Source of the DNA: a virus
Virus record (IMG/VR): IMGVR_UViG_3300027806_000064
Span: 1 to 43,599 of that record
DNA length: 43,599 nt
Strand: one strand, 5' to 3'
Part shown: one piece after another, positions 18,300-43,599 of the stretch
Layout of the letters: each line of letters opens with the position of its first letter
Numbering within the stretch: position 1 is the first letter of the stretch
The notes under the pieces: model-generated
Database searches by the model: none
What the model saw: only the letters and a program-made list of their open reading frames with translations
Told to the model about the DNA's origin: nothing
Translations under genes and position numbers: made by a program

Positions 18300-18698
18300 A
18301 TGAGCATCACCATTTCATATAGTGGAACGACGCTCACCCTCGATCCCGACCTCTATTGGGAGGACGAAGCCAACTGGCACCCGGTCGAGCAGAGCGTTCA
18401 ACGGACAGTCACGGGCGCTCTGATCGTGAGCACTGCGACACGGCAGAAGGGCCGCCCGATCACCTTGCGCCCGCTCGACGACACGAGCGCGTGGATGCCG
18501 CGGGCGACCCTGGACATGCTGCGAAGTTGGGCCGCTGTTGCGGGCCGGGAAATGACCCTTACACTCCGGGGCGCGTCATATCAAGTGATCTTCCGTCACC
18601 AAGACGGCGCGGCGATTGAGGCCGAGCCAATCGTGCATTACAGCGACGTGGACGGCGCGGACTCATACAAGATCACCCTTCGTTTCATGGAGATTTAA
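18300..18698 (+). CDS. Minor tail protein (132 aa)
   Basis: Begins MSITISYSGTTLTLDPDLYWEDE and shows a beta-sandwich-like pattern (SVQRTVTGALIVSTATRQKGRPITLR, LDMLRSWAAVAGREMTLTLRG, YKITLRFMEI). Small proteins of this pattern directly follow tape-measure genes in several siphoviruses and are thought to join the tail tube to the tip complex. It starts 3 nt after the tape-measure stop. Exact family not recognised. Confidence 0.82.
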   Translation: MSITISYSGTTLTLDPDLYWEDEANWHPVEQSVQRTVTGALIVSTATRQKGRPITLRPLDDTSAWMPRATLDMLRSWAAVAGREMTLTLRGASYQVIFRHQDGAAIEAEPIVHYSDVDGADSYKITLRFMEI

Positions 18699-18699
18699 G

Positions 18700-21600
18700 A
18701 TGACCATCGAGAGCGGCGACATCAAACTGGTCGCGTCGCAAGTGATGCTGGACTCGGATCAAGGCGGCGGCGCCCCGACTTCCACCGTCATCAATGACGG
18801 CACCAGCAACAGCATCTTCCCCGATATTTCGGAAGTTGATCGCGCAGGCGGCCGAGTCAACCTGCGAAAACTGTTCGCATCGGTGCAGACCAGCGACACG
18901 GATCAGTATTTCGGCGCCAATGTCATCGTCGCCGACCCGCCTGACGATCCTAACGTGTCGGTCAACCTGTTCACGACCAACGAGGTCTTTGATCGGCGCA
19001 CCGAAGCGCGAGATCGGATCGAGTCGTATCTTGCTGTTGGAGCGATCTACTCGGGCTACCTGTTCGGCAACCACATCACCGGCATGCGGACGCTGACAAT
19101 TCTGCAGCGCGAGGAAATTTCGCCGCCTGTAGTTGGTGACACGTTCGTTTTGCGTGCGTTTGAAGGACTTGTCAATGAAGTTGAGCAGTATGTTCGAGTA
19201 TCGGACGTGGGTACGATTGTTCGCACGTTCGCCGATTCCGGTGGCGAGTTCCGGCGATTGCAAGTCACATTGGAAATCACCGACGCACTGCGCTCGGACT
19301 TCCCCGGCTTCGATGCCATACGCAACGATGCGACGGTGGTTTACACCGGAAAGACCAAGGTCTACGGCACGATCGTCGCAGACGCAGCGCGCTACTACGG
19401 CGTGGTGCCACTCGAACAGCCGGCCGAGATTGGAGATTTTACCATCAAGGCCGAGACGATTTTTACGCAGCTTGTACCAAGCACCCGGTTTGAGGTTCCC
19501 ATTGCCGACGCGCGCATGAATCGTCAAAGCGCGACCCTGGTCAAAGCCGGTGATATCTACAACCGCACGATCTCGATGACGTTCACCACGTCGCAGTCGA
19601 TGTTCGTCGGTGGTGGCATTCTGCCGGGCAGCCTCAGTGTGACCCGAGGCGGCATCACGATCACCGACCGCGGCGGCGTGCTGATCGACAACGCTAACGC
19701 TCAGGTCGGCACCGTTGATTACGAGAACGGTATTCTCAGCCTACAGACCAACGTGTTCGGTTCAGGTGCAGGTACTCATTCGGTCGTATACACGCCTGCT
19801 CGGCGGCCAGTGGTTGTCACTGATTCTTTGGGCATTCCAATTAACGCGCAGAGCCAACGCCTGAACTATACGCTCACCCTCGATCCTGTTCCTGCGCGCG
19901 GATCGCTTGAGGTTTCCTATCGCGCGCTCAATCGCTGGTACACGTTGACCGACGACGGCAGTGGCACCCTTCGCGGTTCAGATGCAGCGTTCGGCGCCGG
20001 CACGCTGAACTACACGACTGGCGGCCTAAGCGTCACTCTAGGCGCACTGCCCGACGTTGATTCACAAGTCATCTTCACATACTCGTCGTCCGTGGTCGTC
20101 AAGGCGATTTCTGAGGTTCAGCAGGCAGGCCCTTCTTTGCCACGAGCCTTCGGCAAGGTCGTGACGCTCGGACAGGCGATCAAGCCAGGCACACTGACGC
20201 TCACGTGGAATGATGGAGCGAACCGGACGGCCACTGATTTGAACGGCGCGCTGACGGGCGACGCGAGCGGGTCGATCAACTACGCCAATGGTCAGATTGT
20301 CTTTCGGCCGAATCTCTTGCCTGCAAAGAACACAAGTATTTCGGTTGCGATTCAAAACATCACGTCTCAGTCAGTCGATGTTCTGTCTTTTAACGATGCC
20401 GGAGCTAACTGGACATTTGGCATTGCCGGGCCAGTAGAACCGCGCTCTGTTGAACTTGCGGTAAATGCGTTTTACAGTTACCCCCTTGATATAAGCGGTT
20501 CGATAGAGAATCGTTACTTTGTCATTCGCATAACCGACGATGGCGCGGGTAACCTTATTACCGGCAACATGACAAGCAATCTAGTAGTTGGCACTATCAA
20601 CTACAGCAATGGGTCTTGCACGCTAGGAAAATCTATTTCTGAATACAAGGCTGAGATCGCTACTTTTAATTCTAGTTATCTGATTGGAGCGCAACCGTCA
20701 GGCGGTCAAGGGGGCGGCAGTATCGCTGCGTTTGATTGGAAGCGAACTGGAACTCAGATAATCAATGTCGTCATCAATCTGATTAACGGTCCAGGGTCGT
20801 TCACCATTGAGAATGCTCCTTGGCAGTGGTGGGCTGGTGTCAACGCCAACGCAGCTATTGTTCGTTACGCAAATGGCTCGACATCGGCCGGCACTAGCGC
20901 ATTCTCCCTGGACGAGATTTTCCTTCCGAACAATTCAAACGGTTTCACCGTCACGCCGGGCTACACGCCAAAACTGTCGTCGTTCTTCATTGGCCCGAAT
21001 CTCTACGTGCGACGCGACAGCGATTGGATTGTCAATCCTGATCCAACCGACGGAAACGGAACCACGGTTGGTTCCGAAGCGATCATCGGTGGTATTCCCG
21101 GCGTGCTGTTGAGCACGTGGACATCGGGACTGACATCTACGCCGACTCAGATTGCAGGCACCGCTGATCCGTCATCGAGCGGGTCAAGCACGCCTTTGAT
21201 CGTTGCCGGCGTCACGTTCCGCACCGCAGTTGCACCGCTGTTCAATGGCGGTTTCTCGATTGCCGGAAACTGGGTGGACGGCGGCGGTGCTTTGTTCAGC
21301 GCGACAGCAAACAACGCCGGGTTTATCAGCACCGGCAGCGCACCGCCCGATGCCAATACGCCGGGCTCGTGGGGCGTCTTTGGTGTGGTGGACTACGAGT
21401 CGGGCGTCGTGCAACTGCGCTTTGGTCGTCGCGTGCCTGAAAGCATGGCTACGGCAAATGGCGTTGCTGACATCACCGAATTGGCAATACCGAATGTCAC
21501 GCTTGTGCAGACGCGCTTTGCGCAGGCTGACACGCTACGCTACAACGCAGTGGGCTACGCCTACCTGCCGCTGGACGCGACCCTTCTCGGCCTAGACCCG

Positions 21601-22431
21601 GTGCGCTTGCCGAGCGATGGTCGCGTACCGATCTTCCGACCAGGTGCGTTTGTAGTTGTCGGCAACACCGCTACGGTCGGTCCCGTTACCGTGAGCAACG
21701 GGCAGACGATCAACTGTGGGCGGGTGCGCTTGTCTCGGGTGCGCGTGATTGGCGCCAACAATCAGGTTATCAACACTGGATTCACGACCAACCTCGACCT
21801 CGGCACCGTTACGTTCAACGATGTTACTGGCTACTCTCAACCTGTTCGCATCGAGCACAGGATCGAGGACATGGTGCTTGTGAGCGATGCGCAGATCAAC
21901 GGTCAACTGACCTTCACTCGCGCGCTGACGCATGACTATCCGGCGCCAGGCACTTACGTGTCAAGCGCCCTGGTCGCTGGCGACCTTTCGGCTCGGGTCG
22001 CAGAACTGTTCGATCAGCAGACTTGGAACAACGTGTGGAGCGACAGTCCCGTGGGTAGCCCGGCCACGGGCACGTTCAACGACATCCAATATCCGATTGT
22101 CGTGACTAACCGCGGCGCGCTGACCGAGCGGTGGGCGCTGCAATTCATCAACAACACGAACTTCAACATTATCGGCGAGCACGTCGGCGTGATCGGCCAG
22201 GGGAACACGTCAACGAACTGCGCACCGCTGAACCCCGCAACCAACGAGCCCTACTTCACGATCCCGTTCCAAGGGTGGGGCTTGGGATGGGCGACCGGCA
22301 ACGTGCTGCGCTTCAACACGGCCGGCGCGTTCTACCCAGTTTGGGTTGCCCGCACGATCCTGCAAGGCCCGGAAACGGTAATCAACGACTCCTTCACCAT
22401 CCTGATCCGCGGCGACGTGGATCGTCCGTAA
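18700..22431 (+). CDS. Large tail-tip structural protein with repeated beta units (1243 aa)
   Basis: The ATG at 18700, one base after the previous stop, is preferred over an in-frame ATG at 18616 that would run through the upstream gene. The product contains at least five units with the pattern hydrophobic-G-x-[IV]-[DN]-Y-[ETASN]-[NST]-G: VGTVDYENGIL, GAGTLNYTTGGL, GSINYANGQI, VGTINYSNGS and FGVVDYESGVV. These suggest stacked beta domains. The N-terminal 260 residues look distinct (SIFPDISEVDRAGGRVNLRKLF ... TYFGANVIVADPPDD-like) and may be the baseplate-facing part. No enzymatic motif seen. Probably a tip or side-fibre backbone. Confidence 0.85.
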   Translation: MTIESGDIKLVASQVMLDSDQGGGAPTSTVINDGTSNSIFPDISEVDRAGGRVNLRKLFASVQTSDTDQYFGANVIVADPPDDPNVSVNLFTTNEVFDRRTEARDRIESYLAVGAIYSGYLFGNHITGMRTLTILQREEISPPVVGDTFVLRAFEGLVNEVEQYVRVSDVGTIVRTFADSGGEFRRLQVTLEITDALRSDFPGFDAIRNDATVVYTGKTKVYGTIVADAARYYGVVPLEQPAEIGDFTIKAETIFTQLVPSTRFEVPIADARMNRQSATLVKAGDIYNRTISMTFTTSQSMFVGGGILPGSLSVTRGGITITDRGGVLIDNANAQVGTVDYENGILSLQTNVFGSGAGTHSVVYTPARRPVVVTDSLGIPINAQSQRLNYTLTLDPVPARGSLEVSYRALNRWYTLTDDGSGTLRGSDAAFGAGTLNYTTGGLSVTLGALPDVDSQVIFTYSSSVVVKAISEVQQAGPSLPRAFGKVVTLGQAIKPGTLTLTWNDGANRTATDLNGALTGDASGSINYANGQIVFRPNLLPAKNTSISVAIQNITSQSVDVLSFNDAGANWTFGIAGPVEPRSVELAVNAFYSYPLDISGSIENRYFVIRITDDGAGNLITGNMTSNLVVGTINYSNGSCTLGKSISEYKAEIATFNSSYLIGAQPSGGQGGGSIAAFDWKRTGTQIINVVINLINGPGSFTIENAPWQWWAGVNANAAIVRYANGSTSAGTSAFSLDEIFLPNNSNGFTVTPGYTPKLSSFFIGPNLYVRRDSDWIVNPDPTDGNGTTVGSEAIIGGIPGVLLSTWTSGLTSTPTQIAGTADPSSSGSSTPLIVAGVTFRTAVAPLFNGGFSIAGNWVDGGGALFSATANNAGFISTGSAPPDANTPGSWGVFGVVDYESGVVQLRFGRRVPESMATANGVADITELAIPNVTLVQTRFAQADTLRYNAVGYAYLPLDATLLGLDPVRLPSDGRVPIFRPGAFVVVGNTATVGPVTVSNGQTINCGRVRLSRVRVIGANNQVINTGFTTNLDLGTVTFNDVTGYSQPVRIEHRIEDMVLVSDAQINGQLTFTRALTHDYPAPGTYVSSALVAGDLSARVAELFDQQTWNNVWSDSPVGSPATGTFNDIQYPIVVTNRGALTERWALQFINNTNFNIIGEHVGVIGQGNTSTNCAPLNPATNEPYFTIPFQGWGLGWATGNVLRFNTAGAFYPVWVARTILQGPETVINDSFTILIRGDVDRP

Positions 22432-40245: not shown

Positions 40246-40662
40246 TTAGGCCGACTTGCCTGCGTTCTTCACGAATTCCTCAGCGTACTCGGTGATCTCT
40301 TTCCACGCCTCGGGCTTGGCCTTGAGTTCCGGCACCTTGCTGCAGCCGTAGCGGGCCAGAGTGCCGGCAAAGTTCGAGCGGTCCATGACCGTTGACAGCG
40401 CTACCAGCGCCGGCAGCACGTCTTTGTCGTAGTCGAAGGTACGCTCGGGGGCGGCCGGCGCAGGAGCACGTGCGGCCGGCGCAGGAGCAGTAGCGGCCGG
40501 CGCAGGAGCAGTGGCGGCGTCAACGACGGCTGGCTTGTTATGCTGACCAAACAAGCGATCGGCAGCTTCGGCAGCAGTGGCCGGCGCAGGAGCGTTGTGC
40601 TTCGTCAAGAAAGCAGCGGCATCGGCCGCGCTCGGGAACGTGAAAGTTACTTGAACAGACAT
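40246..40662 (-). CDS. First gene of the replication operon, two-domain protein with Ala-Pro linker (138 aa)
   Basis: An N-terminal part of about 43 residues (VQVTFTFPSAADAAAFLTKHN, then AADRLFGQHN), an Ala/Pro linker of about 30 residues built of TAPAPAA units, and a C-terminal helical domain (FDYDKDVLPALVALSTVMDRSNFAGTLARYG across turns; EITEYAEEFVKNAG). The linker separates two small domains, perhaps binding different partners. The ADRLFG stretch resembles the operon's DLF tips but is internal. Ribosome site inside a GAGGA-T-TCCTC palindrome. Function unknown. Confidence 0.75.
   Translation of the reverse strand: MSVQVTFTFPSAADAAAFLTKHNAPAPATAAEAADRLFGQHNKPAVVDAATAPAPAATAPAPAARAPAPAAPERTFDYDKDVLPALVALSTVMDRSNFAGTLARYGCSKVPELKAKPEAWKEITEYAEEFVKNAGKSA
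40451..40513. repeat. Three 21-bp tandem repeats in the linker-coding region
   Basis: Units beginning gcggccggcgcaggagca occur at 40451, 40472 and 40493, with a diverged copy near 40578. They encode the TAPAPAA heptads of the protein at 40246, so linker length can change in seven-residue steps. Confidence 0.88.
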
Positions 40663-41755: not shown

Positions 41756-41932
41756 ATGAACCGCACACAAGACCTAATGCAGCGCGCCAAGAGCGAACTG
41801 ATTGACGCCATCCGCGCCGCCGAAGACGAGCGCGTGCCGGCCGCGCTGCTAAAGCAGTTGGAAACACTGGCCGGCAAACTGGAAACGCTGCAATGGAAGG
41901 TCAAGGAGCGGGCGCAACGTGGCAACCGCTAA
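41756..41932 (+). CDS. Small coiled-coil protein (58 aa)
   Basis: ATG at 41756 with aggagaagcag ribosome site, stop TAA at 41930. The product is almost one helix: MNRTQDLMQRAKSELIDAI, AAEDERVPAALLKQL, ETLAGKLETLQWKVKERAQ. Heptads with Leu suggest a coiled coil. The stop codon falls in the left arm of the first attC-like palindrome. Function unknown. Confidence 0.65.
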   Translation: MNRTQDLMQRAKSELIDAIRAAEDERVPAALLKQLETLAGKLETLQWKVKERAQRGNR

Positions 41933-41999
41933 GACCGCGGCCGAGCGCAAGCAGCGTGGCCCAGCGGCCCGAAGGGTCGGATTAAGCGAAGGGTTAGGC
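41920..41999 (+). repeat. attC-like element A
   Basis: Right core GTTAGGC (41993-41999) preceded by GCTAAGACC (41928-41936) pairing with GGTC..TTAAGC (41975-41987, three unpaired bases), and AACC (41924-41927) pairing with GGTT. The left core box (tggcaac) is poorly conserved. The stop of the gene at 41756 lies in the left arm. It is the least regular of the five elements together with D. Confidence 0.4.
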
Positions 42000-42037
42000 T
42001 GTATTTAGCCGGAGCAGATCGACAAGGAGACGAAAAA

Positions 42038-42190
42038 ATGAAGAAGCAGCGCGATGTCAAGATCAGAGGTGGGCGGGTGTTCTACGGCGTTCTTGTAGGC
42101 ATCGCGCTGGTGATCGTGGTCGAGCATGTCATCGTCCACGGCTTTAAGTCTGCGATAGTTGCGATTTGGTGTGACCGGGGCCAGTGCTAG
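42038..42190 (+). CDS. Small membrane protein (50 aa)
   Basis: ATG at 42038 after a strong site (caaggagacgaaaaa), stop TAG at 42188. Basic N-terminus MKKQRDVKIRGGR, then a hydrophobic helix VFYGVLVGIALVIVVEHVIV, then KSAIVAIWCDRGQC with two Cys. N-in topology is likely. It is the first ORF behind the attC-like element A and could be a cassette gene. Function unknown. Confidence 0.65.
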   Translation: MKKQRDVKIRGGRVFYGVLVGIALVIVVEHVIVHGFKSAIVAIWCDRGQC

Positions 42191-42217
42191 GTCCAACAAC
42201 TTTGAACGGAGATTGAG

Positions 42218-42424
42218 ATGATTGAAGCATTGCGCAAGATGATTGGCATTCCGCGAAACGACTTGGACGTGTTGCAACAGCAGTTGCACCAGGCGTTGGT
42301 CGATCGCGCGAATTGTGCTGCGACGCGCGAGTATTACGACGCGATGGAGCGCATGCTGCAGACACGTGTGTTGCGCTTGCAGCGGGAGGTCAAAGAACGC
42401 TTGGCTAGCGGCGTGGACAAGTAG
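42218..42424 (+). CDS. Small helical protein (68 aa)
   Basis: Ribosome site aacggagattgag before the ATG at 42218. Begins MIEALRKMIGIPRNDLDVLQ, continues QALVDRANCAATREYYDAMERM and LRLQREVKERLASG, mostly helical with heptad character. It lies 27 nt after the membrane protein and ends near element B. Function unknown. Confidence 0.62.
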   Translation: MIEALRKMIGIPRNDLDVLQQQLHQALVDRANCAATREYYDAMERMLQTRVLRLQREVKERLASGVDK

Positions 42425-42447
42425 TCCGGTGCAGCGCAGTGTTAGGC
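42403..42447 (+). repeat. attC-like element B
   Basis: Left box ggctagc (42403-42409) can pair at six of seven positions with GTTAGGC (42441-42447). Inner stem GGAC-aagta-GTCC with a GCGGC/GCAGC outer part containing one mismatch. 45 bp in total, the shortest of the five. It overlaps the end of the gene at 42218. Confidence 0.4.
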
Positions 42448-42472
42448 CACATTTAACCGAAGCGAGGAAGTG

Positions 42473-42787
42473 ATGAAAAAGATTGAAAAAGACGGCCGCA
42501 TTGCGGTGCTGTACTCGCCGGGCTTTGGCGCCGGCTGGAGCACCTGGGCTGACGACGACCAGAAAGAGGCCCTGTGCATGGATGCGCGCATCGTCGGCCC
42601 GTTTGTGGCCGGAGACAAGGCGGGCGCCGTGGCTGCCGCTGTGACAATGTTCCCCGACCTCTGCATTGGGGGCGCCGACAATCTGACGGTGATGTGGATT
42701 GAGAAGGGTAAGGCTTTCGAGGTGGATGAGTACGACGGCAGCGAAAGCGTGCATGTGCTGGGCGACCGCGCGTATTTGGTGGCCTAA
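42473..42787 (+). CDS. Hypothetical protein (104 aa)
   Basis: The ATG at 42473 follows agcgaggaagtg; the GTG at 42470 is an alternative. The product has segments IAVLYSPGFGAGWSTWADDD, ALCMDARIVGPFVAGDKAGAVAA, FPDLCIGGADNLTVMWIEKG and FEVDEYDGSESVHVLG. Proteins with this GYGAGW...YDGSE pattern occur in many phages and bacteria as an uncharacterised family. The TAA stop is embedded in the GCCTAAC box of element C, which is the typical relation of a cassette gene to its attC. Confidence 0.78.
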   Translation: MKKIEKDGRIAVLYSPGFGAGWSTWADDDQKEALCMDARIVGPFVAGDKAGAVAAAVTMFPDLCIGGADNLTVMWIEKGKAFEVDEYDGSESVHVLGDRAYLVA

Positions 42788-42877
42788 CCGACAAAGTGGA
42801 GCCACCACGCGCGGCAAGGAGGTTTGATGACTACAGAAGCAACGCCGCGCGAGGTCGGCTCGCACGCAGGGTTAGGC
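42782..42877 (+). repeat. attC-like element C (most complete)
   Basis: GCCTAACC (42782-42789) pairs perfectly with GGTTAGGC (42870-42877). Unpaired spacers of 9 and 8 nt follow on each side. GAGCC-ACC (42799-42806) pairs with GGT-c-GGCTC (42853-42861), leaving one extrahelical C. CGCGCGGC (42808-42815) pairs perfectly with GCCGCGCG (42844-42851). The 28-nt loop holds a ribosome site and the ATG of the gene at 42827. Core boxes, central spacer, inner arms and single extrahelical base reproduce integron attC architecture. Confidence 0.65.
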
Positions 42878-43087
42878 GCTGGTGCCGAGGTGGCCGAGCG
42901 CCACTTGCAGGCGATGCCGGACGGCACGCGCATGGTGCAAGCGTTTGGCACGTCGATGGCCCATGCAGCGGCGGCTCTGCAAGCGTTGGGCACGGCGGCT
43001 AAGGCGCTGGAAGAAGAGACCAAGGCGATGCTGGAAGCGCGCCGCGCTCGGCAGCCTTGGTGGCGCCGGCCATGGCGCTGCGACTGA
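42827..43087 (+). CDS. Small Ala-rich helical protein (86 aa)
   Basis: ATG 5 nt after a strong aaggagg site. The start and first 17 codons lie inside element C, so the N-terminal GSHAGLGAGAEVAE part is encoded by the palindrome. Residues about 30-70 are helical (MVQAFGTSMAHAAAALQALG; AAKALEEETKAMLEARRAR) and the tail is Trp/Arg-rich (PWWRRPWRCD), a possible membrane-active helix. Either a real cassette gene with a start in the attC loop or a fortuitous frame. Confidence 0.5.
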   Translation: MTTEATPREVGSHAGLGAGAEVAERHLQAMPDGTRMVQAFGTSMAHAAAALQALGTAAKALEEETKAMLEARRARQPWWRRPWRCD

Positions 43088-43129
43088 GCCGGGCAGTTCC
43101 CCGGCGTCCGCTGCATCGCGTGGTTATGT
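43085..43129 (+). repeat. attC-like element D (degenerate)
   Basis: GTTATGT (43123-43129), a near match to the right core of some attC sites, preceded by GCCGGG (43088-43093) pairing with CCCGGC and an imperfect outer arm (GCGAC / GT-c-CGC). No convincing left core box. It follows the stop of the gene at 42827. Confidence 0.25.
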
Positions 43130-43156
43130 CGGGTTGAATCACAAGAGGAGAACGTA

Positions 43157-43384
43157 ATGGGTTACAGCGTGGAACTTAGCCGCCGGGTTTACGACAACAA
43201 ACACGGGGTTTGTTTTGAGATTGCCCCTGACAGCGATGGATTAGATTGCGTGCAACTGCGAACACCGGACGCTGGCAGCAAGGAGTACTTCGGAGACGTT
43301 CGGTTCACGGTTCCGAAAGAGATGGCGATATTGATCGGGCAGGCGCTGATCGACGCGGCGAAAGAGGCAGAGTCGCGGGCATAG
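43157..43384 (+). CDS. Hypothetical protein (75 aa)
   Basis: Ribosome site aagaggagaacgta before ATG 43157. The product reads MGYSVELSRRVYDNKHGVC, FEIAPDSDGLDCVQLR, SKEYFGDVRFTVPKEMAILIGQALIDAAKE. A beta-rich start with a C-terminal amphipathic helix; pattern of small phage orphan proteins. Its TAG stop lies in the GCATAGC left box of element E. Function unknown. Confidence 0.7.
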   Translation: MGYSVELSRRVYDNKHGVCFEIAPDSDGLDCVQLRTPDAGSKEYFGDVRFTVPKEMAILIGQALIDAAKEAESRA

Positions 43385-43435
43385 CGCCCGAGGTAAGCCG
43401 CGCCGTCAGGCGTCGGCTCGCACGCAGGGTTAGGC
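43379..43435 (+). repeat. attC-like element E (compact)
   Basis: 57 bp. Left box gcatagc (43379-43385) can pair at six of seven positions with GTTAGGC (43429-43435). Spacers follow; then AGCCG-CGCC pairs with GGCG-t-CGGCT, one extrahelical T, loop GTCA. The last 24 bp (43412-43435) are identical to the right end of element C (42854-42877). Read on the - strand, it contains AGCCGACGCC ... GGCGCGGCTTA, very close to the inner arms of classical resistance-cassette attC sites as I remember them. Confidence 0.6.
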
Positions 43436-43454
43436 CCTGCGCAACCGGAGCGAG

Positions 43455-43599
43455 ATGATGGCCGACCACCACGGAACACCGACACACCCGAAGGCCAAGA
43501 AGGAACACCGCTGCATCTACTGCGGAGGACCGATCCTGGTGGGCGAGCAGTATGTGCAACAAGAGGGCTTCTATGACGGCGCCCCCTACCGCAACCGCT
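43455..43599 (+). CDS. Zinc-finger-like phage protein, 3' end cut by the window
   Basis: Starts ATG at 43455 (or 43458) directly after cggagcgag. The visible 48 residues contain HRCIYCGGPILVGEQYVQQEGFYDGAPYRNR. In known small phage proteins of this type a C-x2-C knuckle with G-E-x-Y and PYRNR is followed by H-x3-C, giving a treble-clef-like zinc site; the second half lies outside the window. Its start lies 19 nt after the core of element E, as for a cassette gene. Confidence 0.7.
   Translation, partial: MMADHHGTPTHPKAKKEHRCIYCGGPILVGEQYVQQEGFYDGAPYRNR

Follow-up and report, generated by a model that had tools for sequence, protein, structure and literature searches.

Integron cassettes are normally described as self-contained ORFs lying between non-coding attC sites. 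An attC is recognised by an R'' box (RYYYAAC) complementary to an R' box (GTTRRRY), and by inner arms, L'' and L', with an extrahelical base. The integron integrase, IntI, cuts at G-TTRRRY, and its gene usually lies divergent from the cassettes. The chromosomal integrons of Rubrivivax, whose hosts encode IntI, have the same R and L arms as the sites analysed here, including the 18-mer TTGAGCGAGGGGTTAGGC. However, their attC are about 129 nt long, have long stems and show no excess of start codons within attC, and host IntI lie outside the phage clade described below.

Phage-borne arrays are known as well. In 10,705 phage genomes, Qi et al. (2023) found 17 clusters of attC sites lacking an integrase (CALINs); the carriers included virulent and temperate phages as well as uncharacterized ones, and 5 of 6 tested attC from virulent phages recombined with IntI1 (PMC9892861). 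The CALINs of the virulent phages TJE1, P12002L and PH101 resemble the present locus in their attC arrays, small cassettes, usual hairpin attC and absence of an integrase; they differ in their hosts and in having had sites tested with IntI1 (PMC9892861). A sequence-only reading that preceded this work had stated that no established example of a lytic-phage accessory region built in this way was known; that claim to novelty fails as stated, because CALINs in virulent phages were already published (PMC9892861). The text of Qi et al. gives no description of start codons within attC, of leader-body fusions or of a phage IntI clade (PMC9892861).

Initiation signals inside recombination sites have a precedent in ORF-11 and ORF-18 of attI1 and in short attC ORFs, known reinitiation ORFs that aid a cassette without a signal of its own (PMC8876359). 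In that case the short ORF is described as ending, with reinitiation by the ribosome, whereas here the reading frame crosses the R box and goes on into the cassette protein, and such signals are found in a variety of attC. Fused cassettes such as blaGES-1/aacA4 show adjacent cassettes expressed as a unit, but that fusion is fixed and arose by attC loss, whereas here the attC is kept and appears itself to be coding (PMC4670013). A literature search on start codons, in-frame fusion and ribosome-binding sites in attC and on phage integrons, with most subscription journals outside its scope, returned no translated attC. Phage-borne cassette arrays are a known class, within which the translated attC seems to represent a new variant.

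The window, that is, the whole stretch of 43,599 nt that was analysed, is a siphovirus-like phage with terminase, portal, head, tape measure, polymerase, helicase and exonuclease genes. Its closest named phages by TerL are Curvibacter phage PCA1 (59%) and Acidovorax phage ACF1 (55%), in neither of which an attC covariance model found a site within the first 50 kb. Megablast of the final 9.6 kb of the window against phages gave no match, and no close relative spanning the array was found with the exonuclease and the DNA polymerase as baits. Phage genes flank the array on the left side only; on the right the contig ends within it. Further left, at 40445-40593, four copies of a 23-nt GC-rich repeat occur, three of them in tandem at 21 nt, within a minus-strand ORF (40246-40662), where they give an Ala/Pro-rich repeat stretch in the protein. 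The features of the array are as follows.

41756-41932, plus strand: ORF of 58 aa preceding the array and stopping within the left half of degenerate attC 1 (sequence, translation).
41914-41999, plus strand: degenerate attC 1, right arm intact and left half decayed (top right-arm score, 25.0; model E 1).
41994-42441, plus strand: cassette A, between cut points G-TTAGGC (boxes 41993 and 42441), with small ORFs 42038-42190 and 42218-42424.
42403-42447, plus strand: attC 2, essentially a right arm only (right-arm score 20.4; model 3.5 bits).
42442-42871, plus strand: cassette B, with ORF 42473-42787 of 104 aa (sequence, translation; no Pfam match).
42782-42877, plus strand: attC 3, complete, 96 nt, of the start-codon-bearing type (model E 4.1e-8; fold; SD and ATG position).
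42827-43087, plus strand: predicted fused ORF of 86 aa, leader MTTEATPREVGSHAG encoded by the attC and body by cassette C (translation, fusion table).
42872-43429, plus strand: cassette C, between boxes 42871 and 43429, with the body of the fused ORF and ORF 43157-43384, the latter 97% identical in DNA in contig L104.
43123-43129, plus strand: GTTATGT, no recognisable attC, possible relic right arm (score 5.8; no model match; present in L104 with the ORF).
43379-43435, plus strand: attC 4, complete, 57 nt, R'' GCATAGC (model E 8.6e-5; repeat D1).
43430-43599, plus strand: cassette D, with an ORF from 43455 truncated by the contig end (sequence).

PHROGs and Pfam searches of the window's cassette ORFs gave no match, and an Rfam search matched no family.

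The positions given in the sequence-only reading for the GTTAGGC boxes (41993, 42441, 42871, 43429), for GTTATGT (43123) and for the ORF ends (41932, 42787, 43384) and starts (42038, 42473, 43157, 43455) were all confirmed. The stop codon of the cassette B ORF is the TAA of the R'' box GCCTAAC. A bare count of GTTAGGC is not significant, with 6 in the window against 2.5 expected and 6 of 100 shuffles equally high. Because box counts alone prove little, the window was tested against attC gathered from other contigs. When a weight matrix for the right arm, derived from 174 attC outside the window, was applied, the four GTTAGGC boxes took the top ranks over the whole 43.6 kb (25.0, 20.4, 20.0 and 20.0), and the maximum across 60 shuffled windows was 16.0. 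A right-arm-like match at 18948-18954 on the minus strand, inside a tail-region gene (18616-22431), scored 15.1 (0.03 expected); the covariance model has no match there, and it is probably due to chance.

The covariance model was built from 22 attC, all of other contigs. In that set the L-box helix covaries around a constant extrahelical base, and both the R''/R' and the L boxes show pairing and covariation from phage to phage. The reading had proposed such a scan, with several matches clustered at 41.9-43.5 kb and nowhere else to count as support. Two significant matches did cluster in the region, at 42782-42877 (E 4.1e-8) and 43379-43435 (E 8.6e-5), 502 nt apart, and with the two decayed sites they form a cluster of at least two attC. 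The site at 41914-41999 was borderline (E 1 over the whole window, E 0.085 in a 3.6 kb search), 42441, where the right arm alone survives, reached a non-significant 3.5 bits, and 43123 gave nothing. The sole other match in the window was the 42782-42877 site on the opposite strand (E 0.39). R''/R' pairing is 7/7 at 42782-42877, R'' carries two changes (GCATAGC) at 43379-43435, and no clear R'' is present for the attC at 41993 and 42441. From the matrix ranks and the model matches, the window contains two complete attC and a further two whose left halves have decayed, all in one orientation and between small ORFs. The two complete sites have a common 24-nt right arm (repeat D1) and different left halves.

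GTTATGT at 43123 was rejected as an attC, its matrix score of 5.8 being at noise level and no model match being found; it is possibly, at best, a relic right arm. It accompanies ORF 43157-43384 in L104, another IMG/VR contig, with 97% DNA identity over 282 nt, and this identity begins inside the attC arm, not at the box. As to the main proposal of the reading, an attC cassette array within a phage genome, the covariance model, the attC common to other phage contigs and the R-box junctions in related arrays all support it: the end of this genome is a real integron-style cassette array.

The most unusual feature of the locus had been overlooked. In its predicted fold the attC at 42782-42877 is a usual hairpin, with AAGGAGGT and an ATG (42827) inside it. 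The frame from this ATG passes through GGG TTA GGC into the next cassette, giving the 86-aa ORF 42827-43087. We use the term start-codon-bearing attC for a site that contains an SD and an ATG from which the frame stays open across the R box and into the following cassette. The survey covered 153 unique phage attC followed by 250 nt or more of sequence. Of these, 63 were of this type, and 55 of the 63 had a frame that went on in the following cassette for 40 codons or more. With dinucleotide shuffling of the attC interiors, the two counts were 7.9±2.5 and 4.3±1.9, respectively. No excess was found in Rubrivivax chromosomal attC, with 6 of 156 against 8.1 in shuffles. A pattern for the start-bearing type matched 36/105 phage sites, 0/134 host array sites and 2/81 Rubrivivax genomes. 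GTTAGGC is open in two of its three frames, the third reading TAG, and both open frames are used (35 and 28).

Cassettes behind a start-bearing attC have an own start near the box in 18 of 55 cases, against 75 of 98 for the others (p 1.4e-7). In the predicted folds, 64% of the ATG and 55% of the SD are unpaired, against 34% for attC overall; at about one third of the leader sites the ATG or the SD is partly paired. The leaders encoded by attC are mostly 13-29 residues long. Since leader codons show little purifying selection, we read the attC as donor of a start signal and not of a functional peptide. Because the third-position excess in leader codons is only slight, we make no claim for a conserved, functional leader peptide. 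A pattern for a conserved cassette leader matched nothing. Translation of the fused ORFs probably begins at the attC start.

In the attC at 4381-4486 of L067, one extra G before the R box (GAGGGGGTTAGGC) places the leader in the other frame, the one fitting the body behind it. Fused ORFs in L003, L066, L084, L092 and L111 also end inside the next attC, so that both ends of the protein are encoded by attC, with C-termini such as PNVRAKL coming from the left arm of that next attC.

The attC type is shared between phages and Rubrivivax. A 21-base stretch at the 42871 box is present in three further IMG/VR contigs, all of which have plain attC arrays, and the attC of 42782-42877 recurs in four other phage-like contigs (L002, L003, L004, L014). 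When the window's own attC was searched against 84,980 genomes, the sole match was a contig with phage primase- and terminase-like genes, and no bacterial array was found. The 18-mer from the attC arms occurs in at least 80 stretches of IMG/VR viral contigs and in 21 of 60 Rubrivivax genomes (up to 82 copies), and in 0 of 398 other sampled Pseudomonadota genomes. IntI above the family cut-off is present in 45 of the 60 Rubrivivax genomes, and known Rubrivivax integron arrays also match the covariance model. By this sequence agreement, the R and L arms of the window attC are those of Rubrivivax chromosomal integrons. The 18-mer search replaced, for hosts, a strict attC pattern that had given 0/151 in the family to which the Rubrivivax MAG belongs; the most likely reason is that host attC exceed the length permitted by that pattern. 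Median attC length is 96 nt in phages versus 129 nt in hosts. As the sample was drawn with patterns derived from the attC itself, all proportions describe this attC type only.

Phage genes lie on both sides of the array in G002 (between exonuclease VIII and tail spike), G004 (between Gam and terminase), G006 (between endolysin and terminase) and G640. Other carriers have phage replication, tail, ejection or integrase genes near the array. Some carriers are temperate, a phage integrase adjoining the array; the label "lytic" given in the sequence-only reading is not borne out. One carrier of leader-type attC, L057 (7602-9392), encodes a phage transposase (phrog_310); transposable phages too may therefore hold such arrays.

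The reading had also described the cluster as lacking an integrase. This is right for the window contig, which ends inside the array and has no IntI, but some phage contigs with a like array carry one: IntI is present in 4 of 44 related carriers. In G640 the gene order is terminase, head, tail fibre, phage integrase, IntI, then array, and in G675 head, tape measure, tail fibre, IntI, array, DnaB. In a tree, the four phage IntI group with a single Rubrivivax IntI in a clade (98/95) that excludes the 23 other host sequences. The contig of this lone host member carries portal, terminase, DnaB and phage integrase genes and leader-type attC, so it most likely lies in a prophage. The clade, which consists of five sequences only, with G654 on a long branch and G661 partial, suggests a phage-adapted integron lineage. 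At L173 (6716-11356), L174 (17558-19409), L176 (1501-6415), L199/L200 and L040, the IntI gene follows the array and has the orientation of the cassettes. This arrangement is alike in phages and the Rubrivivax MAG, and no attI was identified at these loci.

Comparison of arrays gave a record of recombination between leaders and bodies. One body is found behind different leaders and one leader before different bodies, with junctions at the box: the body beginning ARSRSDWALRAL has three leaders, and the one beginning PAPERAELCQPEGLKFDAF stands behind the window's leader in L003 and behind another in L120. At least nine body families have more than one leader family. This figure is a lower bound, and only counts of several leaders per body were kept, leader clustering having merged many leaders via the common arm (one cluster held 60 bodies). 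Between L041 and L102, 90 nt of attC are identical up to the box and nothing beyond; between L053 and L067, identity is found only downstream of the box, beginning at it. IntI probably moves these attC sites. Several same-body pairs also have the final 10-20 nt of the arm in common; homologous exchange within the arms may therefore contribute alongside IntI.

For a methyltransferase body in L092 and a further body in L106, autonomous homologues exist in the Pseudomonas phages phPA-G and Doze. The homologous genes start about 3 codons before the part in common with the cassette bodies, and the cassette versions have no ATG, GTG or TTG at that point, so that the leader is the only evident start in L092 and L106. 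One fused cassette body, at and downstream of 3615-3718 in L106, is an ASCH-domain protein (PF04266, E 1.4e-6). The bodies presumably serve accessory functions such as anti-restriction.

Several other explanations have to be weighed. GC-rich inverted repeats between ORFs would also be seen if the palindromes were transcription terminators or other repeats between small phage genes, and the search without an Rfam family match sits well with that. But R'' and R' pair, the spacing is conserved and the helix covaries around an extrahelical base, all of which fits attC; integron arrays known from Rubrivivax also match the model, and its matches refute this account for 42782-42877 and 43379-43435; we consider it hardly credible. 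That the array is host DNA beside a prophage, or an assembly chimera, and thus outside the phage proper, might be suspected from its position at a contig end, off which it runs, and from an attC type that is that of Rubrivivax chromosomes. In other contigs, however, arrays with this attC have phage genes on both sides, the window attC was found in four further phage-like contigs but, among 84,980 genomes, in no bacterial array, and phage attC are shorter than those of hosts (median 96 versus 129 nt). This makes a foreign origin of the segment quite improbable.

An ordinary CALIN of no special design, with cassettes captured from a host chromosomal integron, and with the ORFs in attC arising by chance or being reinitiation ORFs like ORF-11 of attI1, would agree with the published phage CALINs (PMC9892861) and attI/attC reinitiation ORFs (PMC8876359), and with the weak constraint on leader amino acids. 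It sits poorly with the eightfold excess over shuffles of SD and ATG open through the box, an excess that host attC do not have, with frames that run without a stop and are fused to the next ORF (55/63 for at least 40 codons), and with bodies of which some have no other evident start; we find it unlikely. The boxes could instead be attC remnants on which no integrase acts now, the region changing through drift and through homologous recombination in its conserved arms. Two of the four window attC are indeed decayed, attC 3 and 4 have in common the 24-nt right arm and not the left halves, the identity with L104 begins within the arm, and several same-body pairs agree over the last 10-20 nt of the arm. 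Yet the window has two complete attC, pairing and covariation of the R''/R' and L boxes extend across phages, IntI is found in hosts and some carriers, and identity begins at the box in L053/L067 and ends at the box in L041/L102. We regard present-day remnants as a possibility to be kept in mind, although a doubtful one.

The explanation that we prefer, with a probability of roughly 0.75, is that of an integron array in a Burkholderiales phage, in whose accessory region it would occupy 41914-43599, with attC supplying a translation start to swapped cassettes. The host was probably Rubrivivax-like. An integron integrase, from the host (a Rubrivivax-type chromosomal integron) or from those related phages that encode IntI, would recombine the attC, and cutting and joining at G-TTAGGC would exchange small accessory genes between phages. 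An attC with an SD and an ATG inside, open through the R box, would thereby give initiation and a short N-terminal leader to any cassette placed behind it, and cassettes in that position often lack a start codon of their own. The sequences themselves show the attC and how widely they are spread, fusions that are in frame, junctions that are sharp, cassettes that frequently have no start of their own, and the IntI clade. Against this explanation stand the facts that only two of the four window attC are complete, that the window has no IntI, and that 18 of the 55 fused cassettes have a possible own start, as well as the weak selection on leader codons, the partial pairing of ATG or SD at about a third of leader sites, and the identity with L104 that begins within an arm. 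On a broader proposal we are evenly divided: there may be a phage-adapted integron lineage with its own IntI clade, in which attC would be both recombination sites and translation-initiation modules, and in which IntI recombination would build chimeric proteins from attC-encoded N-termini and cassette bodies and spread these proteins among unrelated phages.

If the start codon can come from the attC, cassettes would need no start of their own, and the array would be a device for recombining protein parts. The phage-borne version would give site-specific exchange of accessory genes, including a DNA methyltransferase homologue, across unrelated backbones, and phage selection would be seen reshaping integrons.
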